Assembly (NCBI GenBank): GCA_012729145.1
Contig: JAAYDT010000035.1
Coordinates: 1-64,000, forward strand
DNA: 64,000 nt
Origin: Synergistaceae bacterium
Lineage (GTDB): Bacteria > Synergistota > Synergistia > Synergistales > Thermovirgaceae
Reading direction: 5' to 3'
Shown here: piece after piece, positions 19,559-58,963 of the stretch
Layout of the letters: each line of letters starts with the position of its first letter
Numbering within the stretch: position 1 is the stretch's first letter
Notes under the pieces: generated by a model
The model's database searches: none
What the model saw: only the letters and a program-made list of their open reading frames with translations
Told to the model about the DNA's origin: nothing
Made by a program: the position numbers and the translations under genes

Positions 19559-19570
19559 ATATTAACGGAG

Positions 19571-19606: not shown

Positions 19607-19618
19607 ATGAAAGATAAA

Positions 19619-19633
19619 TGCAACAGTGTTGCA
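19619..19633. promoter_or_regulatory. Perfect 7-1-7 palindrome, operator candidate for Fur-family regulator
   Basis: TGCAACA-G-TGTTGCA lies 14 bp before the ATG of the Fur-family gene and overlaps its leader. Fur-family dimers commonly bind 7-1-7 inverted repeats and repress their own operons, so autoregulation is a reasonable inference. The sequence does not match the iron Fur box. Confidence 0.5.
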
Positions 19634-19647
19634 GAAAGGAGAAAAAT

Positions 19648-20834: not shown

Positions 20835-20845
20835 CCGGAGCAATA

Positions 20846-23439: not shown

Positions 23440-23442
23440 GCC

Positions 23443-33446: not shown

Positions 33447-34700
33447 TCAGTTCTCCACGAGAACAGGGAGAGTTGATCCTCCCGCCGGCATTACAATGGC
33501 CTTCGCTGAAGGACCCAGGATCGAGAAGGCTTTATTTACCGCCTGCTGAAGATCTTCTGCTGGTTCCGCAAAGAAGGAGCGGACAACCGGATCATCCAGT
33601 TCGGATACCATCAGGATAGAAGATCTCCTGAGTGCCACGGCTATCGCTGCTGCCTTGTGACCTCCGAGCTGGAAATCCCTTTCGACCCTCTCGATAAGGT
33701 CTTCCGGTTGATGCGCCTCAGCTATCCAGTCTGAAAAGGTTTTGGAACCCAACCCTTCCTTGCAGGATGCCACCCATATGACTACTCCACCGGGGCGTAC
33801 CGCGCAGACAGCATTGTCCAGGGCTTTTTGTGCCTGATAAACGTTGATATCCTTGGGGAATCCTCCAGCTGATACCAGGACCAGGTCAGCCAGCTCCCTG
33901 ATAGTGATCTTGCCGAGGGCATCAAGGATCTCGCAGCCTTTTCGGTGTGCCTGGATATAATCGCCTGCAACAGCGTGAATTATCCTTTTTTCCGGGTCCA
34001 GGACCACGTTGAAGATAAAATCGATCTTCAGAAGGTTGCCGATCTCCTCAAGGTCCTCACGAACCGTGTTTCCCTTGATGTTGCCCGTCCGGGACCCTTC
34101 ATCAAGCATCATTCGATGATTGGCCTGAATGGCTTTGATAGTGGAAACTCCCGGGAAGATCGCCTTCGCGCCCCCGCTGTACCCTGCAAAGTAATGGAAT
34201 TCGATATTTCCTATACATATCCGGCGATCAGCCTCGACTACGGGTCTGAAAATCTCGACCGGTGTGCCCACAGACGTCTCTCCCAGTCTCACACAGTCCG
34301 ACGGGTCATGATCGATGCAACGATATCTCTCGAAGATATCGTCCCCGACAAGATGTCTCATCTCATCTTCCGTGTGGGGGCGATGGCTGCCCAATGCAAA
34401 AATTATTGTTATATCTTCGTCTTTGACCCCGATCCCTCTCAGTTCTTTCAGGACCGGAGGGAGGACTTTCATGGACGGACAGGGCCTGGTGATGTCGCTC
34501 GTGATAAGGGCGATCTTCTCGCCGGGCCTTACTATTTGCCTAAGGGGGGGTGTCCCGATGGGACTGGAAAGGCCCTTTTCCATGATGTCCTCTGCCGATC
34601 CGACCTTAGTGGCCTGACGGGGTTGCAGGATCTCAAGAATATTCCTGTCGGGGATCTCGCATTCCATGGCCGTCTTTCCAAAGGGCAGGTGCAGTTTCAC
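33447..34700 (-). CDS. LarA-like nickel-pincer racemase family protein (DUF2088)
   Basis: 417 aa. LarA features are SDITRPCP (about 68-75), GSHRPHT (104-110), and FHYFAGYSGGAKAIFPG (168-184). These contain the His and the Lys to which the nickel-pincer nucleotide is attached in lactate racemase (here H169 and K179). LarA proteins racemise or epimerise 2-hydroxy acids. No larB/C/E cofactor genes are in the window, so activity depends on genes elsewhere. GTG 34700 is preferred: AAAGGAGG lies 8 bp upstream, and the family starts with this segment. It is divergent from the AOR gene. Confidence 0.85.
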   Translation of the reverse strand: MKLHLPFGKTAMECEIPDRNILEILQPRQATKVGSAEDIMEKGLSSPIGTPPLRQIVRPGEKIALITSDITRPCPSMKVLPPVLKELRGIGVKDEDITIIFALGSHRPHTEDEMRHLVGDDIFERYRCIDHDPSDCVRLGETSVGTPVEIFRPVVEADRRICIGNIEFHYFAGYSGGAKAIFPGVSTIKAIQANHRMMLDEGSRTGNIKGNTVREDLEEIGNLLKIDFIFNVVLDPEKRIIHAVAGDYIQAHRKGCEILDALGKITIRELADLVLVSAGGFPKDINVYQAQKALDNAVCAVRPGGVVIWVASCKEGLGSKTFSDWIAEAHQPEDLIERVERDFQLGGHKAAAIAVALRRSSILMVSELDDPVVRSFFAEPAEDLQQAVNKAFSILGPSAKAIVMPAGGSTLPVLVEN

Positions 34701-34969
34701 TCTAAACGCCTCCTTTCCAGGGTATCGTCGGTCCAATTGGTCCCTCAAAATTCTGTTTGCAGGAAATAACAGGACCCTTGATCCTGCCTCTGGCCCGGTC
34801 TGGTCTCTCCTTCAGGAAGCTTATCGTAAAAGGCTTAAGGCTGGAAGGGAGAGCGACAGAAGTCTTTGCAATCCGGGCAGGACAGGACAGTTATCGAAAG
34901 CAACAAAACACCAGGGCCCTTTTTAAAAGGGTCAGTGAAAGGAGCGGGGATTTTTTCAGGGTTTGAATA

Positions 34970-35195: not shown

Positions 35196-37070
35196 ATGCC
35201 CTTCTGGAAAGGCAAGAGGCTCTGGATCGATCTCTCCAAGAGAGAGGTGAATTCCGAGATACTGCCGGAATCCTATGCCCGCAAATGGGGAGGTATGAGA
35301 GGACTGGCGCTTCCGGTCCTTCTTGAAAAGGTTGAAAGGGACACTGATCCCCTTGGGCCGGATAATCTGATGGTGATAGCGTCGGGTCTGCTTAACGGTC
35401 TCGGATTTCATGGAGCCTGCCGTTACGGTGTTTACGGAAAAAGCCCTCTGACCGGAGGGTTCGGGGGGAGTGACGCGGGGGGCTATTTCGGTCCCGGGAT
35501 CAGGAACCAGGGTGTAGAGGCCCTTGTCATATCAGGGGCTTCCGAAGATCCGGTCTACCTGTGGGTGGAAGACGGCGATGTAAAAGTAATGGATGCCACC
35601 TACCTCTGGGGTCTTGAGACAGGGCCTGCCTTTGAAAAGCTAAAAGCAGAGCACGGCAGGATTTCTACCATCCTTATAGGTCCTGCGGGAGAAAACCTCG
35701 TAAGGTACGCATGCATCGTCAATGATCTTCATCATGTTAACGGCCGGACGGGAATGGGAGCCGTTATGGGATCGAAGAAGATAAAGGCAGTTGTGGTTCC
35801 TTACCCCAAGGCTCTGGAGCCGTCGGACAAGGATCTTCTTAAAGCCATGCAGGAAGAATTCTCAGGCTGGAAGGAAGAACCCCTCTCCTGGAATCTACAC
35901 GTTCATGGTACCTCGGCAGGAGTCGGGGCCAACAACAAGGACGGGCTTCTCCCCACCCGTAACTTCCAAAGATCCGCCTTCGAAGGAGCCGCTTCTATTG
36001 ACGGCAAACTGATGACAGAGACTCTGCTCAAGGATCGATACGGCTGTTTTGCCTGTGCTGTCAGGTGTAAAAGGATAGTCGAGGGTGGGAAGTACAACAC
36101 CGATCCTTCCTACGGCGGTCCTGAATACGAGACCCTTGGAGCTCTTGGGTCCGTATGCTGTATCGATGACCTGGACGCAGTGACCAAGGGCCACGAGGTC
36201 TGTAATCGCCTTGGTCTGGATACTATCTCGGCAGGTATGACCATTGCCTGGCTTATGGAGTGTATCGATAATGGCGTTATCTCTTCCGGGGAAGCCGGGA
36301 TAAGAGGTTTCGGCGATGCAGAGGGAATGCTCTCCCTGTTGGAAAAGATATCAAGACGAGAGGGCATTGGAGACCTTCTTGCTGAAGGTTCCCTGAGGGC
36401 TGCCAAAAAGGTGGGGAAGGGGAGCGACAGGTTCGTTGTCGCAGTAAAGGGACAGGAACTGCCCATGCACGAACCAAGGGGCAAGAAGGGAGTGGCTCTT
36501 GGGTACGCTTTCTCCCCGACTGGTGCCGACCACATGCAGTTTGCCCACGATCCCCTCTTTGTCTACCCTGACGGGCTCCCGATGCAGAACCTCAAATCCC
36601 TTGGGGTGCTGGAGCCACTGGATCCCCAGAGCCTGAAGCCTGACAAGGTAAGGGCGATAATTTATCTGTGGTTCTCCTGGGCCGTTCTAAATCACCTCGG
36701 CGGTTGTTATTTTGTTTTCGGTCCCAGGAGTTATTTCCCCTTGTATAGAATGCCCCCCCTGGTCCGTTCAGCTCTCGGTTGGGAGACTTCTCTCTGGGAG
36801 CTTATGAAGATGGGGGAACGTGGATTGAACGCCGCAAGAATGTTCAACCTGAAAATGGGGCTTGGCGCGAGCGATGATGTCCTCCCGGAGCGGCTCTCTG
36901 AACCTCTTCTCGAAGGGGCTTTCAAGGGGAGCTCAATTGGCAGCGAAGAGTTCTCTGAAGCCAAATCCCTTTATTACAAGATGATGGGGTGGGACGAAGA
37001 GGGAGTGCCCTCTGAGGAAAAACTGATAGAGTTGGGATTACAGGAACTGGTCGATCTGTCTTTAGGATGA
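35196..37070 (+). CDS. Aldehyde:ferredoxin oxidoreductase (tungsten AOR family)
   Basis: 624 aa. The N-terminal AOR domain holds the tungstopterin-binding segments (GRTGMGAVMGSKKIKAVV near 183-200). The [4Fe-4S] ligands are C284, C287 and C291 (GCFACAVRC) plus the Cys in NHLGGC near 505. GHEVCNRLGLDTISAGMTIAW is also typical. The enzyme oxidises aldehydes with ferredoxin, or reduces acids in the reverse direction, and requires W-bispterin. A strong GAAGGAGG site precedes the ATG. An FCD regulator gene follows 95 bp later. Its metal need fits the tungstate uptake genes nearby. Confidence 0.92.
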   Translation: MPFWKGKRLWIDLSKREVNSEILPESYARKWGGMRGLALPVLLEKVERDTDPLGPDNLMVIASGLLNGLGFHGACRYGVYGKSPLTGGFGGSDAGGYFGPGIRNQGVEALVISGASEDPVYLWVEDGDVKVMDATYLWGLETGPAFEKLKAEHGRISTILIGPAGENLVRYACIVNDLHHVNGRTGMGAVMGSKKIKAVVVPYPKALEPSDKDLLKAMQEEFSGWKEEPLSWNLHVHGTSAGVGANNKDGLLPTRNFQRSAFEGAASIDGKLMTETLLKDRYGCFACAVRCKRIVEGGKYNTDPSYGGPEYETLGALGSVCCIDDLDAVTKGHEVCNRLGLDTISAGMTIAWLMECIDNGVISSGEAGIRGFGDAEGMLSLLEKISRREGIGDLLAEGSLRAAKKVGKGSDRFVVAVKGQELPMHEPRGKKGVALGYAFSPTGADHMQFAHDPLFVYPDGLPMQNLKSLGVLEPLDPQSLKPDKVRAIIYLWFSWAVLNHLGGCYFVFGPRSYFPLYRMPPLVRSALGWETSLWELMKMGERGLNAARMFNLKMGLGASDDVLPERLSEPLLEGAFKGSSIGSEEFSEAKSLYYKMMGWDEEGVPSEEKLIELGLQELVDLSLG

Positions 37071-37164: not shown

Positions 37165-37884
37165 ATGATAGTCAAAGCGACGCTTTATGAGCAGGCCTAC
37201 AAGAAGATTAAAGAAGGAATACTGAAAGGGACCTTCAAGCGGGATCGACTCTACTGTGAACAGTGGTTCGCAGATTACCTCAATATTTCCAGGACACCCG
37301 TGCGGGATGCCTGTCTGAGGCTCAAGAGGGACCAGTACATTGACATTATCCCCAACAGGGGGATAGTGATCAAGGAGATCTGCTCACAGCAGGTCATCGA
37401 GATATCCCAGTTAAGATCTTCTATTGACAGCTTCTGTGCCGCCTACCTTGCCGAGAGGATCGACACCCCGGAGGCCAGGAAACAGTACGAAAAGATCAAG
37501 ACCATCAACGATCAGGAGCAGAGAATGCTCCTTGAGCTGGGCAACATATCGGACCATTCTATCGATGTGGAGTTCATACAGCTGGACCTCGAATTTCACA
37601 AGGAGATCATAGGTTTTACGGGAAACAGGCGTTTCATGGAGATAAACAACGAGATCTATTCCTATATCAATCTTCTGGGCGTGGAAGTCGTCAAGATCGA
37701 TACAAGAAAACAGGAGAGCGTCGATGAGAACGAAGCCATCCTGGCCGCGATAGCAAGCGGAGATCCGATCGCTGCCTTCAAGGCTGCCTGTTACCATGTA
37801 GAGGCTATTGCAAAGCGGCTTTTGAAGATGATGGAAAGACAGGAGAAGCCTGAAGCCCAGCAGGACCTTAACAGGGTAGGCTGA
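37165..37884 (+). CDS. GntR-family (FCD) transcriptional regulator
   Basis: 239 aa. Winged helix at about 1-70 (ADYLNISRTPVRDACLRLKRD, PNRGIVIK). The FCD effector domain spans about 80-225, with metal-site residues expected around DLEFHKEI and the His in CYHVEAIAK. FCD regulators usually respond to carboxylates or hydroxy acids. It lies between the AOR gene and the racemase/GAPDH/PGK/TRAP genes. Short ATACTAC repeats downstream are candidate operators. ATG 37165 is taken over an upstream ATG because of spacing to AAAGGG. Confidence 0.85.
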   Translation: MIVKATLYEQAYKKIKEGILKGTFKRDRLYCEQWFADYLNISRTPVRDACLRLKRDQYIDIIPNRGIVIKEICSQQVIEISQLRSSIDSFCAAYLAERIDTPEARKQYEKIKTINDQEQRMLLELGNISDHSIDVEFIQLDLEFHKEIIGFTGNRRFMEINNEIYSYINLLGVEVVKIDTRKQESVDENEAILAAIASGDPIAAFKAACYHVEAIAKRLLKMMERQEKPEAQQDLNRVG

Positions 37885-38257: not shown

Positions 38258-38920
38258 ATGAAGAAGAGGGTTGGAGTTGTTCACACATTTCTTTATTCGG
38301 TAGAGGACCTGAAAAAGCAGTTCAGGGAAAAACTCCCCGAAGTGGAAATGATCAACATCATTGATGACAGTCTTCTCGAGGAAGCTCTTGCGAACAAAGG
38401 ATTGACCCCCGGCATCATCAGCAGGATGTGCGCATACTACAAACATTGCCAGGAACTTGGCTGCGAGTGCATTCTGAACCAGTGTTCATCCGTGGGCGAG
38501 GCAGCCGATATCGCCGCGAAGCTCATTTCCATCCCCGTTGTCAAGATCGATTACCCCATGGCCAAGAAGGCAGTAGAGCTTGGAAGCAAGATAGCAGTTA
38601 TCGCCACTGCCATTTCTACAGTGGAACCTTCAAGTCGTCTAGTAGAGCGTGCAGCAAAGGAGACAGGAAAAGATGTGACCGTGTCCCGTTGCTTTGTTGA
38701 GGGCGCCTACGAATTCCTTCTCAAGACAGGAGATCGCGAAAAGCACAATGAAATGGTAACGGCAGCGGTTAGAAAGGCTGCTGAGACAAATGATGTGGTG
38801 GTTCTTGCGCAGGGAAGCATGTACCACCTCATGCCCCTTCTTGCAGACGTCAAGAAGCCTGTCCTTACGAGTCTTGAGTCCGGAGTCGCCCAGATAAGGG
38901 AAGTTCTCGGACTTGAATAA
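38258..38920 (+). CDS. Asp/Glu racemase superfamily protein, one catalytic Cys replaced
   Basis: 220 aa with two similar alpha/beta halves. The first half has CECILNQCSSVGEAAD, where the first catalytic Cys is expected. In the second half the equivalent position reads VVVLAQGSMYHLMP with no Cys. Racemases of this superfamily need two Cys, while relatives such as maleate isomerase or arylmalonate decarboxylase vary here. I therefore expect a lyase, isomerase or decarboxylase rather than a true racemase. ATG 38258 follows AAGGGG. It is the first gene of the GAPDH-PGK-SDR-TRAP cluster. Confidence 0.75.
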   Translation: MKKRVGVVHTFLYSVEDLKKQFREKLPEVEMINIIDDSLLEEALANKGLTPGIISRMCAYYKHCQELGCECILNQCSSVGEAADIAAKLISIPVVKIDYPMAKKAVELGSKIAVIATAISTVEPSSRLVERAAKETGKDVTVSRCFVEGAYEFLLKTGDREKHNEMVTAAVRKAAETNDVVVLAQGSMYHLMPLLADVKKPVLTSLESGVAQIREVLGLE

Positions 38921-38959
38921 GCTACCATCAGGTCAGTCCTGATTTAGGAGGGGATAGGA

Positions 38960-39988
38960 ATGGTTGTCAAGGTTGGAGTTGCGGGATACGGTGTTATAGG
39001 TCAGAGACTAGCGGACGGCGTCGCTCTCCAGGGCGATATGGAACTGGTAGGAGTAGCGGACCTTGCTCCGACCCTTTCCATCCGTGCCATGAAAGAAAAA
39101 GGGATGCCCTACGATCTTTACCTCGTGGAGGGGGCCGACAAAACCAAGTTCGATGAGCTGGATATTCCGGTGGCCGGAACCTTTAATGATCTTCTGGACA
39201 AGGTCGACATAATGCTGGATTCTTCCCCCGGCGGTGTAGGCGCAAAGAACAAGGAGCTCTATGAGGAAAAGGGAGTGAAGGCTGTTTTCCAGGGCGGCGA
39301 AGCCAATTCCATTGCAGATGTGTTTTTCCACGGCTATGCCAACTACGAGAAGGGACTGAACCAGAACTACCTCAAACTAACCAGTTGTAACACCACCGGC
39401 CTCATACGGGCTGTTGACTGCCTGGACCGGGAATGTGGCGGGATCAGGAAAGTCGTTATCACCATCATAAGGAGAGTGGCAGACCCCGGTGACTATCACA
39501 GAGGTCTTACAAACGCGCTACAGATGGACAAGGCACCGTCCCATCAGGCAGTTGACCTGATGACCATAATGCCCCATGTGGAGGCAACGGGAATTCTGGT
39601 CCATACTCCTGTGACCCATGGCCATATCATCACCGTTGTTGCCAGCGGGAAGAAGAAGATATCCAAAGAAATGGCCCTCAAGGCATTCAAGGGTCATGAC
39701 CGGATCAGGGTGGTCAGGATCGACGAGGGTTTCAAGGGCAATGCCTCCTTCTTCAGGTACGCCCGTGACCTCGGGAACCCTCGCGGTGACATGTACGAGA
39801 TCGGCCTTTGGGAGGATAGCATAGTAGAAAGCGGCGACGATATAGTCTTCGCTATAAACATCCCCCAGGAGAGCGTAACCATTCCGGAGACTGTCGACGG
39901 CATCCGGGCCGCCATGGGGATGCAGGCCGAGCGTCTCTTTGCTGTTGCAGAGACCAACAAATATCTGGGCATCGGCAAATGGAAGTAA
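38960..39988 (+). CDS. Type II (archaeal-type) glyceraldehyde-3-phosphate dehydrogenase-like
   Basis: 342 aa. Rossmann GVAGYGVIGQR (6-16), the catalytic thiol in LTSCNTTGLIRA (near 138-149), then RRVADPGD, PSHQAVDL and TPVTHGHI match the archaeal GAPDH family (Cys, Arg, His all in place). It is not the bacterial GapA type, whose motif is ASCTTNC. Such enzymes oxidise an aldehyde with NAD(P) and phosphate to an acyl phosphate. It is followed with almost no gap by an archaeal-type PGK, which would use that product to make ATP. TRAP-cluster context argues for catabolism of an imported acid, not central glycolysis. Confidence 0.85.
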   Translation: MVVKVGVAGYGVIGQRLADGVALQGDMELVGVADLAPTLSIRAMKEKGMPYDLYLVEGADKTKFDELDIPVAGTFNDLLDKVDIMLDSSPGGVGAKNKELYEEKGVKAVFQGGEANSIADVFFHGYANYEKGLNQNYLKLTSCNTTGLIRAVDCLDRECGGIRKVVITIIRRVADPGDYHRGLTNALQMDKAPSHQAVDLMTIMPHVEATGILVHTPVTHGHIITVVASGKKKISKEMALKAFKGHDRIRVVRIDEGFKGNASFFRYARDLGNPRGDMYEIGLWEDSIVESGDDIVFAINIPQESVTIPETVDGIRAAMGMQAERLFAVAETNKYLGIGKWK

Positions 39989-39990
39989 GA

Positions 39991-41244
39991 ATGACCCCAT
40001 TGCAGGGGATGGACGTAAGAGGGAAACAGGTCCTTCTCAGGTTGGACATCAATTCTCCTGTTAATGTCAAGGACAAGCGTATTGCCAATGACAACCGAAT
40101 CCAGAAGAGCCTTCCCACACTCAGGTATCTTCTGGAGAATGGTGCCAGGACCGCAATCATCTCGCACCAGGGGGATACGTTAGATTACCAGAACCTGATC
40201 CCTCTCGAAGAACACGCCAGGATCTTGTCCAGGCTCCTGGGTACAAAGGTGGTTTATATCGATGATGTTTGCGGTCCTGCGGCAAGGGAAATGGTCCAGG
40301 GATTGAAAGATGGAGAGATGGTTCTTCTGGGGAATCTCAGGTACCTTGGAGAGGAGCTTTCCACTTTTGAGAAGGACGTGAAACTGAAGCCGGAGGAAAT
40401 GCTCGGGACCTGGCTGATAAGATCCCTGGCACCGCTTTTCCACCTGTATGTTAATGACGCGTTTTCCGCCGCCCATCGCAACGCCCCTTCAATGACGGCA
40501 TTCCAGGAGATACTGCCTACGGCAGCAGGGTTCCTTCTTTTCGACGAGTTCAAGGCCCTTCACTCGGTGCTTCACGGCGCCACGAAGCCCTGCGTTTTCG
40601 TTCTTGGCGGAGCGAAGATCTCTGACGCTTTCGGAATGATGGAGACGGTCCTGAAGAACGGTACGGCTGACGGGATCCTTACCACGGGCGTGACGGGGTT
40701 GGTAATGCTACTGGCTTCAGGAGTGGATGTCGGCGAGAGGACCGTCGAGTTCTTCAAGGACAAGGATCTGATGGTCTTTGTTGACGAGGCCAGGAAGTAT
40801 CTCAATGAATACCCCGGCAAATTCGAGATGCCCGTCGATGTGGCTTACGAAAAGGAAGGGAAGCGGATGGAGATGGATGTCGACCAGATGCCCATCGACG
40901 GTCTCTACCCCGACATCGGTGAAAGGACGATCAAAAAGTACGCGGAGAGGCTTTCCGCAGCAGGAACCATTTTTGCGAACGGCCCGGCCGGGATGTATGA
41001 GAATCCCCTCTTTGAGAAAGGGACCAGGGGAGTATGGGAAGCCATTGCAGAAAGCAGCGCTTTCAGCGTTATCGGAGGAGGGGACACGGTAAGTTCCGCA
41101 ACACAGTTCATTGACCTTTCCAGGATCAGTTACGTATGTACCGGTGGAGGCGCAATGATACGGTTCATGTCGGGCAAGAAACTGCCTCTGATCGAGGCCA
41201 TGCAGAAAGCCTACGACAGAGTGGAGGGTAAAAACGGACTTTAG
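39991..41244 (+). CDS. Archaeal-type phosphoglycerate kinase-like protein
   Basis: 417 aa. PGK marks: VLLRLDINSPV, ANDNRI, YVNDAFSAAHRNAPSM, VLGGAKISDA and VIGGGDTVSSATQ (ATP site). Compared with ordinary PGK, the motif SHLGRP / HQGRPG reads ISHQGDTLDY. The Arg that contacts the 3-phosphate of 3-phosphoglycerate (R65 in human PGK) is therefore Asp, while the other substrate Arg and the catalytic Arg in LRLDIN are kept. This points to a substrate without that phosphate. ATG 39991 (MTPLQGMDV) is chosen by family alignment; an ATG at 39979 overlaps the GAPDH-like gene. Confidence 0.85.
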   Translation: MTPLQGMDVRGKQVLLRLDINSPVNVKDKRIANDNRIQKSLPTLRYLLENGARTAIISHQGDTLDYQNLIPLEEHARILSRLLGTKVVYIDDVCGPAAREMVQGLKDGEMVLLGNLRYLGEELSTFEKDVKLKPEEMLGTWLIRSLAPLFHLYVNDAFSAAHRNAPSMTAFQEILPTAAGFLLFDEFKALHSVLHGATKPCVFVLGGAKISDAFGMMETVLKNGTADGILTTGVTGLVMLLASGVDVGERTVEFFKDKDLMVFVDEARKYLNEYPGKFEMPVDVAYEKEGKRMEMDVDQMPIDGLYPDIGERTIKKYAERLSAAGTIFANGPAGMYENPLFEKGTRGVWEAIAESSAFSVIGGGDTVSSATQFIDLSRISYVCTGGGAMIRFMSGKKLPLIEAMQKAYDRVEGKNGL

Positions 41245-41380: not shown

Positions 41381-42133
41381 ATGTTTGACCTTACGGGAAA
41401 ATCAGCTTTCGTTACCGGAGGAGCATCGGGTATTGGCCAGGCCATCGCAGTAGCCTTGGCCAAACAGGGAGCTGATGTTGCTATTGCAGATCTTCCAAAT
41501 GCGTCCTTCGAAGAGACAACCTCCAGGATCATACAACTCGACCGTAAATGCCTGAACGTGAAGATGGACGTGCGCGACAAGGAACAGCGCGAAGAGGGTA
41601 TTTCATATGTCGAAAAGGAGTTCTCCGGCATAGATATTCTTGTTAACAATGCAGGGATCAACAGGCCGGCTCCCGGACTTGAAGTGACCGAAGAAAACTG
41701 GGACATGACCTACGAGATCAATGTCAAGGCTGGATTCTTCATCGCCCAGAGGGTTGCCCCTGGAATGATCAAGAAGGGGTGGGGGAGAGTTATCTTCATC
41801 TCCAGCCAGTCGGGTCTTGTCGGGATACCTGGACAGCCAGTCTACTGTTCTGCCAAGGGTGCCGTTGTTCAACTGGTCCGGACCCTTGGTCTGGAATGGG
41901 CAAAATTCGGTGTAACGGTCAACTCCATTGCCCCTACCTTCATCAGGACAAAGCTCACGGAGAAGCGGCTGGAGGAGAAAGAATTCAGAGATTTCGTGCT
42001 TGGCAAGATCCCAAGCGGAAAGCTCGCCGAAGTCGAGGATGTAGCTAACGCTGCCGTTTTCCTTGCCAGCAACGAGTCCGGGATGGTCAACTGCCATACC
42101 CTGCGGGTGGATGGGGGCTGGACTGCCTGGTAG
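41381..42133 (+). CDS. Short-chain dehydrogenase (sugar-acid type SDR)
   Basis: 250 aa classical SDR. TGGASGIGQ (12-20), DLP after the second strand (NAD preference), NNAGI, catalytic Ser in ISSQSG, YxxxK as YCSAK, and C-terminal VDGGWTAW. Overall it is like gluconate 5-dehydrogenase and related hydroxy-acid or sugar-acid dehydrogenases. GGAGGG precedes the ATG. It is cotranscribed with the TRAP genes (40 bp gap). Confidence 0.87.
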   Translation: MFDLTGKSAFVTGGASGIGQAIAVALAKQGADVAIADLPNASFEETTSRIIQLDRKCLNVKMDVRDKEQREEGISYVEKEFSGIDILVNNAGINRPAPGLEVTEENWDMTYEINVKAGFFIAQRVAPGMIKKGWGRVIFISSQSGLVGIPGQPVYCSAKGAVVQLVRTLGLEWAKFGVTVNSIAPTFIRTKLTEKRLEEKEFRDFVLGKIPSGKLAEVEDVANAAVFLASNESGMVNCHTLRVDGGWTAW

Positions 42134-42173
42134 ACGGGCGTGGACCCTTGCTTCTTTCTGGAGGAGGTGCGTA

Positions 42174-42671
42174 ATGAAAAATTTGTTTGTTTTTATAGAC
42201 AAAACAAACGAATTGATCTTCAAGGCAGCTTCGTGGCTGATCGTTCCACTTATCTTCGGTCTCTTCTACGAAGTTGTTGCCAGGTACGGTTTCAAGGCCC
42301 CGACCGTTTGGGCCTACGACTTAACCTATATGCTTTACGGAGCCATGTTCGTGCTGGGTTCAGCCTACGTTCTTGCCAGGAACAAGCACATCAGGGTAGA
42401 TCTTTTCTATGAAAAATTCTCGAAAGCAAGACAAAGGGTCGTTGACATCCTGCTCTACTGCATCTTTTTCTTCCCCCCAATGGCACTTCTGGTCTGGAAG
42501 AGCTATGACTACGCGATCTTTGCCTGGGAGGTTGGAGAAAGAAGCAGCAGTGGTTCCTGGAGACCCTCCCTTGTGCCCTTGAGGATTGTATTCTCGGTCG
42601 GGATGACCATGCTCCTGATTCAGGGAGCAGTCTGCTTTATCCGGATCATCCGTCGGACCGAAAAGGAGTAG
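42174..42671 (+). CDS. TRAP transporter small membrane subunit (DctQ-type)
   Basis: 165 aa, four hydrophobic helices. VVARYGFKAPTVWAYDLTYMLYGAMFVLG shows the DctQ pattern, followed by a charged loop (RNKHIRVDLFYEKFS) and RPSLVPLRIVFSVGMTMLLIQ. It forms the scaffold with the DctM-type channel encoded 7 bp downstream. ATG 42174 follows GGAGGAGG. Confidence 0.9.
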   Translation: MKNLFVFIDKTNELIFKAASWLIVPLIFGLFYEVVARYGFKAPTVWAYDLTYMLYGAMFVLGSAYVLARNKHIRVDLFYEKFSKARQRVVDILLYCIFFFPPMALLVWKSYDYAIFAWEVGERSSSGSWRPSLVPLRIVFSVGMTMLLIQGAVCFIRIIRRTEKE

Positions 42672-42678: not shown

Positions 42679-43998
42679 ATGGATACTGGAGTCATAGCAC
42701 TTTTAATGTTTGCGGCCGTAGCCTTCGGTGTCTTTATGGGTTTCCCGGTCTTTGCAGTCCTTATGGGGTCAGCTTTCTGGCTGGGTCTTGTCGGGTGGGG
42801 CCCTGTGGTCATTGACCAGATGGTCTACCTGGGTTTTGGTGTTCTTACGAATGATGCTCTTCCGGCAATCCCCCTCTTTGTTTTTATGGGAAGTATGCTG
42901 GACAAATCGGGTATCGCCGAGAGATCTTTCAAACTCATGCAGGTGATCTTCGGGCCCGTCAAGGGTTCGGTCGCGCTTGCGACAATGGCCCTCTGCACAC
43001 TTTTCGCTGCCGGTACAGGAATTGTCGGAGCCTCCGTTACAATTATGGGTCTGTTGGCGCTTCCCGTAATGCTTCAGAGGAAGTACGACATCCCCATGGC
43101 TACCGGGACGATAATGGCTGGAGGAACCCTTGGGATACTGATCCCGCCAAGCATAATGCTGGTACTGTACGGTCCGCTTGCGGGACTTTCAGTGGCAAGG
43201 CTTTTCACTGCAGCCATGATCCCCGGGCTGCTTCTGTCGTCCATCTACATCATCTATATCGTTGTAAGGTGTGCAATAAATCCCAAGCTTGGGCCAGCGC
43301 TTCCCCCAGAGGAGAGGAAGATGCCACTGGGTCAACTGGCCTTTCTCCTTGCAACGGACCTGATCCCGTTCCTTTTTACAATCATCGCAGTATTAGGGTC
43401 GATTATCCTGGGCTTTGCATCCCCAACGGAAGCCGCGGCGGTCGGTTGTGTCGGTGCGATAATCCTTGCTCTTCTCCATAAACAGTTGACCTTTAAGAAT
43501 GTAAGGGATGCTGCGTACGAGACGATAAGCACATCGACCTTCATTTTGACCATCACCGTGGCTGCCAATATTTTCTGCGGGGTTTTCCTTGCCCTTGGAG
43601 GTGCCCACATAATCACATCCATCCTTATGGGCCTTCCACTTGGCCCCTACGGGATCCTCTTCCTGATCCTGCTGATCATCTTCATAATGGGTTTCTTTAT
43701 CGAATGGATAGCGATACTGCTTATCTTCATCCCGATAATGACTCCCTTGATCCCCGCCCTGGGCTTCGACCCTCTCTGGTTCGCAGTGGTGGTCTGTGTA
43801 TGTCTCCAGACGGCGTTCCTCACGCCTCCCTTTGCGAGTTCAATCTTCTATCTTAAGGGGATAGCACCGCCGGAAGTGAAACTTCAGCATATCTATAAGG
43901 GAGTAGTTCCCTTCGTGGGGTTACAGCTGATAGGCCTTACTCTGTGCATCGTATTTCCCGACATCGTCCTTTGGCTGCCACGTCTGGTCTATGGCTAG
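42679..43998 (+). CDS. TRAP transporter large membrane subunit (DctM-type)
   Basis: 439 aa, about twelve helices. Family marks: FPLFVFMGSML-like segment (PLFVFMGSMLDKSGIAE), GTGIVGASVTIMGLLALP, AGGTLGILIPPSIMLVLYG, and a final PPFASSIFYLKGIAPPEV. It transports the substrate with Na+. The pair with 42174 and the binding protein at 44125 makes a complete TRAP system. Confidence 0.92.
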   Translation: MDTGVIALLMFAAVAFGVFMGFPVFAVLMGSAFWLGLVGWGPVVIDQMVYLGFGVLTNDALPAIPLFVFMGSMLDKSGIAERSFKLMQVIFGPVKGSVALATMALCTLFAAGTGIVGASVTIMGLLALPVMLQRKYDIPMATGTIMAGGTLGILIPPSIMLVLYGPLAGLSVARLFTAAMIPGLLLSSIYIIYIVVRCAINPKLGPALPPEERKMPLGQLAFLLATDLIPFLFTIIAVLGSIILGFASPTEAAAVGCVGAIILALLHKQLTFKNVRDAAYETISTSTFILTITVAANIFCGVFLALGGAHIITSILMGLPLGPYGILFLILLIIFIMGFFIEWIAILLIFIPIMTPLIPALGFDPLWFAVVVCVCLQTAFLTPPFASSIFYLKGIAPPEVKLQHIYKGVVPFVGLQLIGLTLCIVFPDIVLWLPRLVYG

Positions 43999-44124: not shown

Positions 44125-45228
44125 ATGAGAAAAGGGAAAATGGTACTGGCGCTTGTGGTCGTGATGGCTTTGCTGCTCGCCTTCACCGGTGCGGCCATTG
44201 GCGCCGATCCTGAACCTATCAAGCTCAGAGGACAGAGCTCTGCTGCGTTGGGTACCTACGACTATGAGCATGCGCTGAAAACCTGCAAGAGGATCGAGGA
44301 GATGACAGGCGGCCGTGTTCAGATAGAACTTCTTGCCCCAGGGACACTGGTGCCGGCCTACGAGGTTCTTGATGCGGCGAACCGCGGTGTCCTTGATCTG
44401 GCTGCTTCCTGGGAAGGTTATTGGGTCGGGAAGAACACCGCCTTTACACTCTTTGCCTCGGCAACGGGCGGCCCCTTCGGGATGGATAACCTCGACTTCT
44501 GGGGATGGATGTTCTTTGGCGGTGGCATGGATCTCTGGCATCAGCTTATTGCTGACACGGGTTACAAGAACGTCGTCTCCTTCATGACCAAGGGTGAGTT
44601 CAACGAGCCCCTGGGATGGTTCCCGAAGCCGCTCTCCGGGTATGAGGACCTGAAGGGTTACAAGATGCGAGTCGCCGGCATGGCCGCCGACGTCTTCATG
44701 GAGGCCGGGATATCCGTCGTTAACGTTCCTGCGGGAGAGATCCTTCCGCTTCTCGACAGGGGCACCATCGATGCCACCGAGTTCAGTGATCCCCATAGCG
44801 ACCTTCTCCTTGGTATCCCGGATATCCTGAAGTACTACCACGCACCCGGTGTTCATCAGCCAACAGGTATCATGTCGCTGCATATCAACAAGAAGGTCTG
44901 GGATGGCCTTCCGAAAGACATCCAGAACATCTTCGAACTGGTATGCAATGAAATGACGATGAAGAACACCGTTGAAGAACTTCTCTGGGGCAAGAAGGCT
45001 CTGGACAAGATCCAGGACGAGTTCGGGGTAGAAGTTGTCAAAATCCCGACGGAAGTCGTTAAGCAGCTTCTTGTATCCTGGGACAAGGTGGCCGATGCTG
45101 AAGCCCAGAAGAACCCCTGGTTCAAAAAGATCTATGACTCACAGAGAGCCTGGGCTTCCGAGATGGTTCCTTTCAGGAACCAATTCTTCATCGACTACTC
45201 GGTCATTCACGATCACTACTGGGAATAG
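44125..45228 (+). CDS. TRAP transporter solute-binding protein (TakP-like)
   Basis: 367 aa with a signal peptide of about 26 residues ending GAAIGA. The LAASWEGYWVGKNTAFTLFASATGGPFGMD region and LKGYKMRVAGMAADVFMEAG are typical of the TakP/mannitol-type subgroup that binds 2-oxo or hydroxy monocarboxylates. The conserved carboxylate-binding Arg lies in KMRV. The binding protein is encoded last, separated by 126 bp from the large subunit, and is followed by a long hairpin that may stabilise its message. Confidence 0.88.
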   Translation: MRKGKMVLALVVVMALLLAFTGAAIGADPEPIKLRGQSSAALGTYDYEHALKTCKRIEEMTGGRVQIELLAPGTLVPAYEVLDAANRGVLDLAASWEGYWVGKNTAFTLFASATGGPFGMDNLDFWGWMFFGGGMDLWHQLIADTGYKNVVSFMTKGEFNEPLGWFPKPLSGYEDLKGYKMRVAGMAADVFMEAGISVVNVPAGEILPLLDRGTIDATEFSDPHSDLLLGIPDILKYYHAPGVHQPTGIMSLHINKKVWDGLPKDIQNIFELVCNEMTMKNTVEELLWGKKALDKIQDEFGVEVVKIPTEVVKQLLVSWDKVADAEAQKNPWFKKIYDSQRAWASEMVPFRNQFFIDYSVIHDHYWE

Positions 45229-45378: not shown

Positions 45379-46536
45379 ATGCTGAAAAATTTCAGGTATT
45401 CCGGCCCCTCGGATATCCTTTTCGGAGTTGATGTGCACAGGGAGCTGGGCGCAAAAATTGGAGAGCTTAACGGCAATCGTGTTTTCGTGATAACCGATCC
45501 GGGAGTCGCGAAGGTCGGGATCCTGGAAAAGGTGTTGAAAGTAATCAGAGATAAAGGGATAGCTACGGGTTTTTACGATGGAGTGGTTCCGGAACCTCCT
45601 ATCGAGTCTGTTCAGGAGATCGCCTCAAAAGTCAGGCAGGGCGGGTTCGATCTGGTGATAGGGCTGGGCGGTGGAAGCCCTATGGATGTAGCAAAAGTTG
45701 TATCTGTTCTTCAGAGCAACGATGATCCCATAGAGAGCATGGTGGGAACGGGGAATGTCAGGAACCGGGGTCTACCGACGATCACAATACCGACCACTGC
45801 CGGGACCGGTTCAGAGGTTACCCAGATAGCCATATTCACATTCGAAAAGGAGCAGACTAAAAAAGGTATAGTCTCTCCATTCCTCTTTGCTTCTGCCGCA
45901 GTAGTTGACCCGGTCTTCACTTACGATCTTCCGTCCCACATAACCGCCCACACAGGGATGGATGCACTTGTTCACGCTATTGAAGCCTATCTGAGCCTGA
46001 AGGCAAATCCGATGAGCGATATGTACGCCCTTGAAGCCATTGGAGTTATTTCAAAATATATCCGTAAGGCAGTACATAACGGTGAAGATATTGAGGCCCG
46101 TTATTTCATGTCCCTTGGGAGCCTGCAAGCAGGTCTGGCCTTTTCCAATTCTTCAACGGCAGCGGTACATGCCCTTGCCTATCCTCTTGGAGGGACCTTC
46201 CACATCCCCCATGGCCTGTCCAATACATTGATGCTGAAAAGCGTTATGGAATACAGCTTTTCGGGTAACCTGGCCCGATACGCGGATATTGCCGCAGCAA
46301 TGGGCGAGAACATTGATGGTTTCTCAGAGAGGGAAGCGGCTTTAAGATCAATAGAGGGGGTCGAGAATCTGGCTATCGATCTGGGTGTTCCAACAAAACT
46401 GAGAGAGATGGGTATTCCCAGGGAGGCCATCCCCAAGATGGCCGAAGACGCATCTAGGCAGACAAGGCTGATTCTTCAGAACCCCAGAAGACTTGGCGTA
46501 GAAGATATCGAGAAGATCTATCACAATGCCTGGTAA
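45379..46536 (+). CDS. Iron-containing alcohol dehydrogenase
   Basis: 385 aa group III alcohol dehydrogenase. NAD-binding GGGSPMDVAK and TTAGTGSEVTQIA. Metal ligands are in HTGMDALVHAIEAY (Asp and His) and HALAYPLGGTFHIPHG (two His). It interconverts alcohols or hydroxy acids with aldehydes or keto acids using NAD(P). The position suggests it makes the aldehyde used by the type II GAPDH-like enzyme, which is inference. Confidence 0.9.
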   Translation: MLKNFRYSGPSDILFGVDVHRELGAKIGELNGNRVFVITDPGVAKVGILEKVLKVIRDKGIATGFYDGVVPEPPIESVQEIASKVRQGGFDLVIGLGGGSPMDVAKVVSVLQSNDDPIESMVGTGNVRNRGLPTITIPTTAGTGSEVTQIAIFTFEKEQTKKGIVSPFLFASAAVVDPVFTYDLPSHITAHTGMDALVHAIEAYLSLKANPMSDMYALEAIGVISKYIRKAVHNGEDIEARYFMSLGSLQAGLAFSNSSTAAVHALAYPLGGTFHIPHGLSNTLMLKSVMEYSFSGNLARYADIAAAMGENIDGFSEREAALRSIEGVENLAIDLGVPTKLREMGIPREAIPKMAEDASRQTRLILQNPRRLGVEDIEKIYHNAW

Positions 46537-46614
46537 GAACAATTTTTGGGGGAGCCGTGCCTTTCAGGGCAAATTCTGCTGCCCGTACTGATATTTGAGG
46601 AGGAGAGTAGCAAT

Positions 46615-47949
46615 ATGGAGATCACGAAAGAAGACCTGATCAAGAAGGCCCGGAAACCGGCGGAGGACGCCATGAAGTTACACCCTTTCTACAGGGGGAA
46701 GATGCAGACGGCGCCGAAGTGCTGCATAAGGGACATCAATGATTTTGCGATATGGTACACGCCCGGTGTAGCGGCACCCTGCAAGGCCATAAAGGAGGAC
46801 ATCGATCTCTCCTATGAGTACACCAACCGCGGCAACCTTGTAGCCGTGGTGAGCGATGGCACCAGGGTCCTGGGTCTGGGTGATATAGGTCCCGAGGCGG
46901 GAATGCCTGTCATGGAGGGGAAGGCCCTGCTGTTCAAGTACCTCGGCGGCGTTGACGCCGTGGCGATATGTCTGGATACCAAGGACCCTGACAAGCTCAT
47001 CGAGACGGTGAGGCTCATCGCGCCATCTTTCGGCGGGATCAACCTCGAGGACATCGCACAGCCTAAGTGCTTCCACGTACTTGACGAACTGAGGAAGGAC
47101 TGCAAGATCCCCGTGTGGCACGACGACCAGCAGGGAACTGCGGCAGTTAACCTGGCAGGACTCTACAGCGGACTCAAGATCACGGGGAAGAAGATAGACG
47201 AAGCGAAGGTACGTTTCTTCGGGGCCGGTGCTGCCAGCATAGCCACGGCCAGGATCCTCATAAGCGCCGGGGTCAGGCCGGAGAACGTTATCATGGCCGA
47301 CAGCAAGGGGACGCTCCACAAGGGCCGGACCGAGCTGAAGGACGTCCCCTACGACGTGAAGTGGCACTTTGCCCAGACCACCAACCCCGAGGGTATCGAA
47401 GGCGGCCCGGAGGTCCTCTTCAGGGATGCTGATGTGGTCTACTGCTACACCAAACCGGGTCCCGACGTGGTCAAGAAGGAGTGGGTCGCGACCATGGCAA
47501 AGGATGCCATGCTCTTTGCCTGCGCCAACCCCATCCCGGAGATATGGCCCTGGGATGCGAAAGAAGCGGGAGCGAGGATAGTTGCCACGGGAAGGTCTGA
47601 CTTCCCGAACCAGATAAACAATTCCCTCGGCTTCCCGGGGATCTTCCGGGGCACCCTCGACGTGCAGGCCTCGACCATTACGGACGAGATGTGCATAGCC
47701 GCAGCGAAGACCCTTTCAAAGTGTGCGGAGAAGAATGGCCTCTCCGAAGACTACCTTATCCCGACCATGGATCAGGCCTGGGTCTACCCCGAGGTGGCGA
47801 CCGCCGTCGGCATGAAGGCCATCGAGCAGGGGATCGCCAGAAAGGCCCTCTCCGGAGAGGAACTCCTCAAGACAGCCACCGAAAAGATCCAGTACGCCCA
47901 GAAAATGACCGCATGCCTCACCGAGAAAAAGTTCATAGAACTCCCGTAG
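46615..47949 (+). CDS. Malic enzyme (malate dehydrogenase, oxaloacetate-decarboxylating)
   Basis: 444 aa, the short bacterial type. Active site: IWYTPGVAAPCKAI, GNLVAVVSDGTRVLGLGDIGPEAGMPVMEGKALL (split here by motif), NLEDIAQPKCF, VWHDDQQGTAAVNLAGL, and the Rossmann FFGAGAASIATARI. It converts malate to pyruvate, CO2 and NAD(P)H. Start ATG 46615 lies behind GAGGAGGAG. It ends the catabolic run before a terminator and may link the imported acid to pyruvate. Confidence 0.92.
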   Translation: MEITKEDLIKKARKPAEDAMKLHPFYRGKMQTAPKCCIRDINDFAIWYTPGVAAPCKAIKEDIDLSYEYTNRGNLVAVVSDGTRVLGLGDIGPEAGMPVMEGKALLFKYLGGVDAVAICLDTKDPDKLIETVRLIAPSFGGINLEDIAQPKCFHVLDELRKDCKIPVWHDDQQGTAAVNLAGLYSGLKITGKKIDEAKVRFFGAGAASIATARILISAGVRPENVIMADSKGTLHKGRTELKDVPYDVKWHFAQTTNPEGIEGGPEVLFRDADVVYCYTKPGPDVVKKEWVATMAKDAMLFACANPIPEIWPWDAKEAGARIVATGRSDFPNQINNSLGFPGIFRGTLDVQASTITDEMCIAAAKTLSKCAEKNGLSEDYLIPTMDQAWVYPEVATAVGMKAIEQGIARKALSGEELLKTATEKIQYAQKMTACLTEKKFIELP

Positions 47950-49820: not shown

Positions 49821-49863
49821 TGGTATATCGGTTACATTTCAGTTGAATAATGGTTGTATACCA
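49821..49863. promoter_or_regulatory. TGGTATA...TATACCA operator candidate
   Basis: TGGTATA (49821-49827) and TATACCA (49857-49863) form an inverted repeat in the leader of the FCD regulator. TGGTATACCA is the familiar core of FadR/FCD-type operators, and each arm matches a half-site. A TTGACA at 49791-49796 probably belongs to the regulator promoter. Autoregulation is the likely meaning. Confidence 0.5.
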
Positions 49864-49871
49864 GTAAGGGG

Positions 49872-50513
49872 ATGCGATCCTTGAGAGAGAGAACGAAGAC
49901 CGATTCGGTTTACGAGGAGATAAAGAAGTTGATCCTCAGGGGGGAGCTATCCAGTGACACACCGATTTCGGAGAACTACCTCGCCCAGAGGTTCGGAATA
50001 AGCCGGACGCCTATCCGTGAGGCTCTGAAGCGTCTTGATATGGAGGGTTTCGTCAGGATCATACCCAACCAGGGTGTCTTTGTCCGCGACGTTTCGATCA
50101 GCGAGGTCAAGGAAATATATGACCTGCGGATAGCCCTGGAAGAGTTTGTTGTAAAGGAACTTACCCACACCCTGTCTGAAGATGATCTCTTTGTGCTCGA
50201 GGGGAACCTTGCCCGGCAGGAAGAAGCCCTCCGTAGACACGATGCCTTTGCTTTCCATGAAGAGGACCGTAAGTTCCACGACTACTTCATGAAGGCCTAC
50301 GGTAATGACATGATCACTGACTTCATAACGAACCTGCGTGACCGTATCGAGGGGATCAACGTGAACATGCTGAAACAGCCAGGGAACATGGAACTTTTTT
50401 GGGGTGAGCACAGAAGGATACTGGAAGCCCTCCGCAGAAGGGACGGAGAGGGGGCAACCAGAGAGATGGATGAGCACCTGAAGGGCGGCAAGGAGAGACT
50501 TCTCAGGGGCTGA
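49872..50513 (+). CDS. GntR-family (FCD) regulator of TRAP/dehydrogenase cluster
   Basis: 213 aa. Winged helix at about 1-75 (FGISRTPIREALKRLDMEGFVRI, PNQGVFVRD) and an FCD domain beyond, with DRKFHDYFMKAYGN and the late His in HLKGGKERL. Start ATG 49872 lies on top of its AAGGGG site, so TTG 49881, nine bp from that site, is an alternative. It is encoded directly before the second TRAP operon and probably senses its substrate. Confidence 0.85.
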   Translation: MRSLRERTKTDSVYEEIKKLILRGELSSDTPISENYLAQRFGISRTPIREALKRLDMEGFVRIIPNQGVFVRDVSISEVKEIYDLRIALEEFVVKELTHTLSEDDLFVLEGNLARQEEALRRHDAFAFHEEDRKFHDYFMKAYGNDMITDFITNLRDRIEGINVNMLKQPGNMELFWGEHRRILEALRRRDGEGATREMDEHLKGGKERLLRG

Positions 50514-50657
50514 TCCGTAGAGAGGTACGGCAGTGACCGTTTATTATCCTGAGAGGAGGGATAACGACAGGGGCAGAGGAGAGGTTTCCCCAACTGGGAG
50601 GTAAAAAAACCTGTGAGGGAGGTGAACTGTCCGGATTTCGCCGGACAGGACATTAAG

Positions 50658-51671
50658 ATGAGGAAATTGCTGACAGGAATACTGGTATTGGCTTTGCTCT
50701 TCGGTTTGGCAAGCGTTGATGCAGCTTCAGCCGCACTCAAGGGTGAGTACAAGCTCACTATGAACGTAACCACCGATACTGCCTGGGGCCAGGGCGGGGT
50801 CAAGTTCGCCGAACTGGTCAAGGAGTACACCGGAGGCAAGGTGAACGTAAAGGTCTACCCCAGCGCCCAGCTTGTCGGCGGCGACCAGATGCGCCAGGCT
50901 GAAATGGTCTCCAGTGGTGCTATAGACTTCATGCTCAACTCCACGATCAACATCGCCCCGATCATCCCGGAATGCAACGCCTTTTCGCTCCCCTTCATGT
51001 TCCCCAGTTACGAGTCCGTTGATGCTGTGACCGGCTCGGCAGCGGGCCAGATGGTCTTCGACGCCCTTGAGAAGCACAACATGGTCGGACTGGCATGGGG
51101 CGAGAACGGTTTCCGTGAGCTCACCAACAATGTCAAGCCCATAGCTCACCCCGATGACATGAAGGGTCTCAAGATCAGGGTCGTAACACCTATATACATC
51201 GATATCATGAGAGCCCTCGGCGCGAACGCCATCGCCATGAACTGGGGCGAGGTATTTACCTCGCTGCAGCAGGGCGTTATCGACGGGCAGGAGAACCCCA
51301 TTGTCGGGATCATAATCCCGAACAAGATATACGAAGTCCAGAAGCACCTCACCAACTGGCACTATTCCTACGACGCCCTTATCCTGGCCGTTAACAAGAA
51401 CGTTTGGGAGAGCTTCGATCCAGATATCAAGGAGCAGATCAAGAAGGCCGCCGTCGATGCCATGCACTGGCAGGTGCACGACGTGAGCCGTGTAGGCCTG
51501 GGAGATGGCATCGAGTTCCTCAAATCCCAGGGGATGACAGTGACCGATCCTACTCCGGAGCAGCTTGCCGCGTTCCGCGAAATGACCAAGGCGGTCTATG
51601 AGAAGTGGTCCGGAAATGTCGGTGCCGATATCGTAAAAGCCTTCGAGGAGGCTGTCTCCAGCTTTAAATAA
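50658..51671 (+). CDS. TRAP transporter solute-binding protein (DctP family)
   Basis: 337 aa with a signal peptide ending DAASA (about residue 24). MNVTTDTAWGQGG and PSAQLVGGDQMRQAEMVSSGAIDF are standard DctP strands, LKGLKIRVV carries the carboxylate-binding Arg, and EVFTSLQQGVIDGQENP is the family signature. Specificity is probably a dicarboxylate or keto acid, not resolvable here. ATG 50658 follows AGGA. A strong hairpin separates it from the membrane subunits. Confidence 0.9.
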   Translation: MRKLLTGILVLALLFGLASVDAASAALKGEYKLTMNVTTDTAWGQGGVKFAELVKEYTGGKVNVKVYPSAQLVGGDQMRQAEMVSSGAIDFMLNSTINIAPIIPECNAFSLPFMFPSYESVDAVTGSAAGQMVFDALEKHNMVGLAWGENGFRELTNNVKPIAHPDDMKGLKIRVVTPIYIDIMRALGANAIAMNWGEVFTSLQQGVIDGQENPIVGIIIPNKIYEVQKHLTNWHYSYDALILAVNKNVWESFDPDIKEQIKKAAVDAMHWQVHDVSRVGLGDGIEFLKSQGMTVTDPTPEQLAAFREMTKAVYEKWSGNVGADIVKAFEEAVSSFK

Positions 51672-51686
51672 CATACCATGCTCAAG

Positions 51687-51710
51687 GGGGAGCCGCAGGA
51701 GCGGCTCCCC
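51687..51710 (+). other. Intercistronic hairpin between TRAP binding protein and membrane subunits
   Basis: GGGGAGCCGC-AGGA-GCGGCTCCCC is a perfect 10-bp stem with a tetraloop, followed by TGTTCCC. It sits 16 bp after the dctP stop and would favour more binding protein than permease through partial termination or mRNA stabilisation. Confidence 0.6.
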
Positions 51711-51764
51711 TGTTCCCGTCCCGGGAGAGGCATCTGTCGGGGATCATCCGATAGGAAGGGAACG

Positions 51765-52277
51765 GTGCTAAGGATGTTCAAGTTACTTGACAGGATCGAA
51801 GAGTGGACCTGTGTCACAATGCTTTTCTTCATGGCCATGCTGGCCTTTGTCAATGTGATCGTAAGGTACCTGACTGTTTTCTCTTTCTCCTTCTCGGAGG
51901 AGCTGCTTGTGAACCTCTTCGTCTGGATAACGATGCTCGGAGCTTCGATCGCGACCCGGAAGGGGTCACTGATCGGCGTCAGTTATCTCTTTGACCGGAT
52001 GCCCCCGTCGCTGAAGAAGTTATCGACCGCGGTATTCGTCCTCTGCGGAGTCACCCTTTTCGGCCTTCTCACCATGCATGGGATCGATATGGTCAAGAGC
52101 GAGTTCAGGTCCGGAATGACCACGTACTCCATGGCGCTGCCTATGTGGATCTTCGGAATGGCCGTGCCTGTCTGTGCCTTTATCCTGATCCTGAGAACGA
52201 TCCAGAGGGGCGTACATGAATGGAATGACCTGTCTGGTCCACAGACGGGGTCCTGCCCGGAGGTGGACCAAAGATGA
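51765..52277 (+). CDS. TRAP transporter small membrane subunit (DctQ-type)
   Basis: 170 aa with four hydrophobic helices. FVNVIVRYLTVFSFSFSEEL and LFVWITMLGASIATRKGSLIGV are DctQ hallmarks. GTG 51765 is chosen because AGGAAGGG precedes it; ATG 51774 is the alternative. The stop overlaps the DctM start (ATGA). Confidence 0.88.
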   Translation: MLRMFKLLDRIEEWTCVTMLFFMAMLAFVNVIVRYLTVFSFSFSEELLVNLFVWITMLGASIATRKGSLIGVSYLFDRMPPSLKKLSTAVFVLCGVTLFGLLTMHGIDMVKSEFRSGMTTYSMALPMWIFGMAVPVCAFILILRTIQRGVHEWNDLSGPQTGSCPEVDQR

Positions 52278-53560: not shown

Positions 53561-53636
53561 TGAATGTCCCGAACAACAAGATCATACACGGCAACAGGAC
53601 CGGATGATCATTTTCAGGAAGAGGGGTGGGGGATCC

Positions 53637-54635: not shown

Positions 54636-54656
54636 GGATGGGTTGGTGAAAGGATC

Positions 54657-55628: not shown

Positions 55629-55662
55629 GAGGACTCCCGGTAATGACATGTGAGGATAACCG

Positions 55663-58931: not shown

Positions 58932-58963
58932 GCAGTGTCGGTACCTGGAATGGGGAGGGGCCA

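Follow-up and report, generated by a model that had tools for sequence, protein, structure and literature searches.

In a 64,000-nt stretch of DNA from a Synergistaceae bacterium (assembly GCA_012729145.1, contig JAAYDT010000035.1, positions 1 to 64,000; here called the window), a single plus-strand run of genes encodes a GntR/FCD regulator, an Asp/Glu-racemase-fold protein (RAC), a type II (archaeal-type) glyceraldehyde-3-phosphate dehydrogenase (GAPDH), an archaeal-type phosphoglycerate kinase (PGK), an SDR dehydrogenase, the TRAP transporter components DctQ, DctM, and DctP, an iron-containing alcohol dehydrogenase (Fe-ADH), and a malic enzyme. A LarA-family gene lies on the minus strand about 4 kb upstream. 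The subject of the present analysis is the GAPDH-PGK pair. Both open reading frames (ORFs) turned out to be intact: that of GAPDH (38960..39988, plus strand) ends with a stop codon at 39986-39988, and that of PGK (39979..41244, plus strand) starts either at ATG 39979, overlapping the GAPDH gene by 10 nt, or at ATG 39991, so that the 2-bp spacing given in a preliminary description of this DNA holds for the second start only. The two enzyme types and the neighbors named there (the regulator, the racemase-like protein, SDR, TRAP DctQ/M/P, and Fe-ADH) were all recovered. Its list lacked the malic enzyme and LarA, which prove to be the most informative neighbors of the pair.

The window GAPDH scored well above the cut-offs of both type II models (NCBIfam NF003251, 391 versus 185 bits; TIGR01546, 289 versus 233 bits) and has retained the catalytic Cys143 in the motif SCNTTG. 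It is 36 to 41% identical to glycolytic archaeal GAPDHs and 85% identical to relatives encoded in inositol operons, including that of an inositol-type member of the Anaerolineae (locus L036). Relative to three archaeal enzymes, 36 positions are fixed differently, among them the stretches SHHGPD (to SHQAVD) and VPTTLMH (to VHTPVTH).

We then surveyed the relatives of the pair by scanning a collection of species genomes with a two-sequence GAPDH alignment, which found 247 relatives. Eighty loci were fetched, so that all locus counts below refer to the best-matching 80 of 247 rather than to a random sample, and many of these loci are fragments of metagenome assemblies. The PGKs encoded beside these GAPDHs (78 partner PGKs, with the window and loci L035, L132, and L133 included) were aligned and compared with 29 ordinary PGKs and with the Pyrococcus horikoshii PGK 2cun, the best solved relative of the window enzyme; residues are named below by vertebrate PGK numbering where given in brackets or for the alignment. 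As the preliminary description had noted, the window PGK carries an aspartate (position 66) in place of a phosphate-contacting arginine, its motif being ISHQGD instead of HxGR/K, and keeps the ATP site and the other arginines: D23, N25, R40 (R38), H63 (H62), R121 (R122), R167 (R170), K213, and D369 are all present. The basic residue of glycolytic PGKs at position 65, Arg in 29 of the 29 ordinary enzymes and Lys in 2cun, was found in none of the partner PGKs, which have Ser (66 of 78) or Asp (12 of 78). The change is thus fixed across the whole clade and is not peculiar to the window gene. The equivalents of N25, R38, H62, R122, R170, K219, and D374 were invariant in the 78 sequences, and D23 differed or was gapped in two rows only. 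Likewise, the PGK fold (PF00162, 356 bits in the window) and the residues for ATP binding and phosphoryl transfer (equivalents of K213 and D369 in 78/78) are present. In PGK, Arg65, Arg122, and Arg170 bind the 3-phosphate, His62 contacts the bridging oxygen, and Asp23 and Asn25 contact the 2-oxygen (PMC7729029); set against these roles, the residue survey indicates that one of three phosphate contacts has been lost and the recognition of the 2-hydroxy-acid end retained. In a tree all the variants were united with a support of 95, although against a single archaeal row, which is a weak outgroup. They fell into two groups, one with Asp that holds the window, L132, L133, Anaerolineae, and some Clostridia, and one with Ser that holds Clostridia, Spirochaetota, Acetobacterium, and others. 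The window PGK is 69% identical to that of L036.

The pair is not the only GAPDH and PGK of its genome. Another contig (C62) carries canonical copies of gapA (truncated at the contig end), pgk, and tpiA together, so that the pair is probably not the glycolysis of this genome and its PGK would not be required for the 3-phosphoglycerate kinase activity of the cell. A PF00044 search of the genome gave no match, for the sole reason that gapA is cut at the contig end, and the window GAPDH was the only type II enzyme detected in it. In 36 of 39 other carrier genomes a type I (ordinary) GAPDH is likewise present besides the pair.

The pair recurs in several bacterial phyla, with the two genes co-oriented in 76 of 76 loci, and its most frequent setting is an inositol-degradation operon. 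Over 82 loci the commonest neighbors were IolE (49), the transketolase parts TktN (45) and TktC (44), IolD (43), malic enzyme (41), IolG (33), and IolB (33), and LarA was found in 48 (37, and a further 11 with the window-like type). Of the 36 loci that extend 8 kb or more on each side of the pair, 31 had LarA, malic enzyme, or a DmlA-like gene, 24 had iol genes, 22 had transketolase, and 6 had an acetoin-dehydrogenase-like E1 complex, never together with iol genes or transketolase. TktN and TktC, a split transketolase, together hold the three transketolase domains. Complete ten-gene operons were found in five loci (L101, L108, L110, L111, and L115), the order in L108 being iolG-GAPDH-PGK-tktN-tktC-larA-malic enzyme-iolE-iolB-iolD within 11.4 kb. 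In the L035 cluster IolD and IolE exceeded their NCBIfam cut-offs. The classical pathway kinase IolC (TIGR04382) exceeded its cut-off in 2 of the 39 carrier genomes and fell short of it in the other 37. In four Acetobacterium loci (L058, L068, L072, and L085) the pair is accompanied by a 3-hydroxyacyl-CoA-dehydrogenase-like gene, an E1/E2/E3 complex, malic enzyme, and LarA. This complex, related to one in the window (see below), is directly upstream of GAPDH-PGK-malic enzyme-LarA there and in L059 as well. Molybdenum hydroxylase genes adjoin the Acetobacterium operon. The typical context of the pair is thus inositol degradation or an acetoin-dehydrogenase-like complex, and the TRAP/SDR/Fe-ADH set is local to the window locus.

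The malate-related neighbors of the window are the malic enzyme (46546..47949, plus strand; PF00390, 105.7 bits; PF03949, 81.4 bits) and the LarA-family nickel-dependent racemase (33447..34748, minus strand; PF09861/PF21113). The best structural match of the latter was the malate racemase Mar2 (6d6z, 393 bits, versus 243 bits for the lactate racemase 2yjg), and the LarA of Acetobacterium was likewise nearest to Mar2, the two scoring 392 to 393 bits against it and 240 to 243 bits against lactate racemase. A LarC cofactor gene is present in the window's genome. The activity of Mar2 is consistent with its genomic context, malic enzyme being named by its authors as a clue (PMC7583248). Locus L106 has neither LarA nor malic enzyme and carries a gene of the tartrate-dehydrogenase family (tartrate/D-malate-dehydrogenase type) directly after PGK. 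This family includes D-malate dehydrogenase.

On the basis of sequence, context, and structural analogy, we infer that the pair probably carries out the GAPDH/PGK step on a carboxylate analogue of the usual substrate, so that malic semialdehyde would be converted through malyl phosphate to D-malate with formation of ATP. In most relatives, IolG, IolE, IolD, and IolB would take inositol to 2-deoxy-5-keto-gluconate. The product of IolB, 2-deoxy-5-keto-D-gluconate (CH2OH-CO-CHOH-CHOH-CH2-COO-), is a D-threo ketol of the kind used by transketolase, and may be regarded as xylulose-5-phosphate with the phosphate ester swapped for a carboxylate. The split transketolase would remove its two-carbon ketol end and leave malic semialdehyde (OHC-CHOH-CH2-COO-), which would mimic D-glyceraldehyde-3-phosphate in the same way and with the same configuration. 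GAPDH would then turn (R)-3-hydroxy-4-oxobutanoate, phosphate, and NAD(P)+ into malyl-1-phosphate, and PGK would use this acyl phosphate to phosphorylate ADP, forming ATP and releasing D-malate. The D form is expected because the cleavage of 2-deoxy-5-keto-D-gluconate gives a D-glyceraldehyde-like configuration, and it would explain the presence of LarA, since D-malate needs inversion before an L-malic enzyme can act. Racemization by LarA would thus precede decarboxylation by malic enzyme, while in L106 D-malate could pass directly to the tartrate/D-malate-dehydrogenase-type enzyme. In Acetobacterium the acetoin-dehydrogenase-like complex may perform another thiamine-dependent ketol cleavage that frees an aldehyde. 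For the window we assume the same substrate because of the 85% and 69% identity to the L036 enzymes and the presence of malic enzyme and a Mar2-like LarA. We accordingly propose a phosphorylating (R)-malic semialdehyde dehydrogenase for its GAPDH, a malyl-phosphate kinase for its PGK, a malate racemase for its LarA, and an outlet from L-malate to pyruvate for its malic enzyme.

How the window pair would be fed is a separate matter, inositol being rejected as the feed in this genome by the absence of IolD. The arrangement RAC-GAPDH-PGK recurs in L106, L132, and L133, and in L106 it is preceded by an SDR related to that of the window. Near the set of RAC, GAPDH, PGK, malic enzyme, and LarA in L133 there is also a divergent IolB-like protein (5423-6283, minus strand; 114.7 bits versus a cut-off of 205), with no transketolase nearby. 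RAC (38258..38920, plus strand; PF01177, 52.7 bits) has a single conserved cysteine: in six sequences Cys76 was invariant, the second catalytic site read AQGSM in 6/6, and the two cysteines of Asp/Glu racemases were not both present in any. A more distant RAC, that of L135, belongs to a minus-strand cluster (6038-9841) with a kinase of the four-carbon acid sugar type, a dehydrogenase of the tartronate-semialdehyde-reductase type, a GntP-type permease, and a class II aldolase. These neighbors suggest that RAC isomerizes C4 hydroxy-oxo acids, and at L135 it may replace the usual isomerase. The SDR (41381..42133; PF13561, 211 bits) and Fe-ADH (45379..46536; PF00465/PF25137; no NCBIfam equivalog at its cut-off), both on the plus strand, are possible feeder enzymes. 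The TRAP genes between them, also on the plus strand, encode the small permease DctQ (42063..42671; PF04290, 84.8 bits), the large permease DctM (42679..43998; PF06808, 250 bits), and the solute-binding protein DctP of the ketoacid/lactate-binding type (44125..45228; PF03480), the best structural matches of which were the ketoacid-binding protein 7ug8, 4yzz, 2hzk, and 2zzv. The DctQ ORF as listed overlaps the SDR gene, and its real start is probably further in, the match beginning near residue 65. Tentatively, and with considerable doubt, TRAP might import 3,4-dihydroxybutyrate or a similar C4 hydroxy-acid, SDR and Fe-ADH might oxidize it, and RAC might interconvert 4-hydroxy-3-oxobutanoate and malic semialdehyde, a role that would liken it to triose-phosphate isomerase in glycolysis. 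The GntR/FCD protein (37165..37884, plus strand; PF00392 and PF07729 over cut-off) is the probable local regulator.

Several observations weigh against this overall reading. IolD was not found in the window's genome, so that the inositol argument reaches the window through sequence similarity only. Arg122, Arg170, and His62 are retained; they too take part in binding the phosphate, and some activity with 3-phosphoglycerate is therefore possible. The IolB of the inositol clusters is divergent and under its cut-off (as seen in L035), the LarA of the window is on the opposite strand at a distance of about 4 kb, and 14 of the 82 loci lack either a recognized feeder or a malate gene beside an otherwise intact stretch, partly owing to short contigs. 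The catalytic and most substrate-site residues of both proteins are kept, as would suit a normal glycolytic pair of the archaeal type that was gained by transfer and placed beside transketolase and inositol genes because these yield triose phosphate; both families are annotated as glycolytic, and the classical route from inositol leads to dihydroxyacetone phosphate. We nevertheless rejected a glycolytic role as the principal explanation and consider it improbable, since the genome of the window has its own gapA and pgk and nearly all the carriers a type I GAPDH, Arg65 is lost clade-wide, IolC is missing from most carriers, and the malate racemase and malic enzyme of the operons would be left unexplained.

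Somewhat less improbable, yet still unlikely, is that the pair acts on another non-phosphorylated hydroxy-aldehyde acid (tartrate semialdehyde, glycolaldehyde, or glyceraldehyde) through a different acyl phosphate, malic enzyme and LarA serving neighboring steps. The window pair would be fed differently from most relatives, the L135 RAC stands beside a four-carbon acid sugar kinase and related genes, the outlet gene of L106 belongs to the tartrate dehydrogenase family, and tartrate is also a substrate of some malate racemases (PMC11770544). Malate rather than tartrate is expected, however, because the C4 aldehyde that 2-deoxy-5-keto-gluconate yields lacks a 2-hydroxyl, and the recurrence of malic enzyme and Mar2-like LarA with inositol genes, together with the close identity of the window GAPDH to the inositol-operon enzymes, speaks for the same substrate in the window. 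The preliminary description had suggested oxidation of a non-phosphorylated aldehyde to an acyl phosphate with a gain of ATP, or the reverse reduction of an acid. Context and sequence favor the former, as a step separate from glycolysis, and the reductive direction is less likely because malate-consuming enzymes adjoin the pair. Activation of malate with ATP and its reduction to malic semialdehyde, whether to dispose of electrons or for biosynthesis, is indeed chemically feasible, the reactions being reversible, with Fe-ADH and SDR as possible reductases and a synthetic malate kinase/semialdehyde route running reductively, on the 4-position (PMC5481828). We consider it very improbable given the catabolic nature of the complete inositol-degradation operons and transporters, the consumption of malate by malic enzyme, and the D-malate/tartrate-consuming enzyme type adjoining PGK in L106.

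Malic semialdehyde thus remains the substrate we prefer. Its natural conversion to D-malate is already known from carnitine degradation in Acinetobacter baumannii, where the carbon then goes on to pyruvate (PMC11353897). There, an NAD(P)-dependent dehydrogenase makes D-malate directly from 3-hydroxy-4-oxobutanoate, without an acyl phosphate or ATP, and is not a GAPDH/PGK pair. The glycolytic P. horikoshii enzymes GAPDH 2czc and PGK 2cun share folds, families, and reaction type with the pair at 41% identity each, but the pair has Asp or Ser for Arg/Lys65, differs at the 36 GAPDH positions (SHHG and PTTLM stretches included), and is found with malate and inositol genes and not as the glycolysis of the cell. 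With the classical myo-inositol pathway (IolG, E, D, B, C, J, and A) the operons share the IolG, IolE, IolD, and IolB steps to 2-deoxy-5-keto-gluconate, whereas IolC is mostly absent and transketolase, GAPDH, PGK, LarA, and malic enzyme would replace kinase and aldolase. The synthetic malyl-phosphate route to 2,4-dihydroxybutyrate likewise uses an acyl phosphate of malate, a semialdehyde, and a kinase/dehydrogenase pair, but is man-made from aspartate kinase and Asd, concerns the 4-carboxyl regioisomer, and is reductive; its activities and intermediates were unreported before, according to its paper (PMC5481828).

We lean toward a natural module in which GAPDH and PGK have become, through a swap from phosphate to carboxylate recognition, a phosphorylating dehydrogenase for malic semialdehyde and a kinase for malyl phosphate. 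This module would end a kinase- and aldolase-free inositol route in anaerobes of several phyla and would have at least two other feeders (the acetoin-dehydrogenase-like complex and RAC/SDR). Neither such a GAPDH/PGK pair, nor an inositol route through transketolase and 2-deoxy-keto-gluconate, nor natural malyl phosphate is described in the open-access literature searched, and an earlier report elsewhere is possible. If correct, the module would be a new site of substrate-level phosphorylation and a new inositol pathway in anaerobes from the gut, the rumen, termite guts, and sediment, provide malyl-1-phosphate with a role in nature, and exemplify a glycolytic phosphate-binding site turned to carboxylate binding. 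The carrier genomes are currently annotated with a second glycolytic GAPDH/PGK and, because IolC is missing, such strains appear unable to complete inositol breakdown, a pathway prediction that would be corrected.

Other genes of the window lie around the cluster. An aldehyde:ferredoxin oxidoreductase (35196-37070) stands between LarA and the GntR/FCD regulator, and an aldehyde of the same pathway could be its substrate. The interval 49854-59956 holds another GntR/FCD regulator and another TRAP set (50613-53560), along with an E1a/E1b/E2/E3 complex that resembles acetoin/pyruvate dehydrogenase and a gene similar to lipoate ligase; this second GntR-TRAP-E1/E2/E3 cluster (49854-58931) may be related. 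Judged from ORFs only, a large molybdenum hydroxylase gene with fused iron-sulfur and molybdenum parts is accompanied by XdhC-like and MoeA-like genes (16242-24465), and several tungstate/molybdate ABC uptake genes are found elsewhere in the window.

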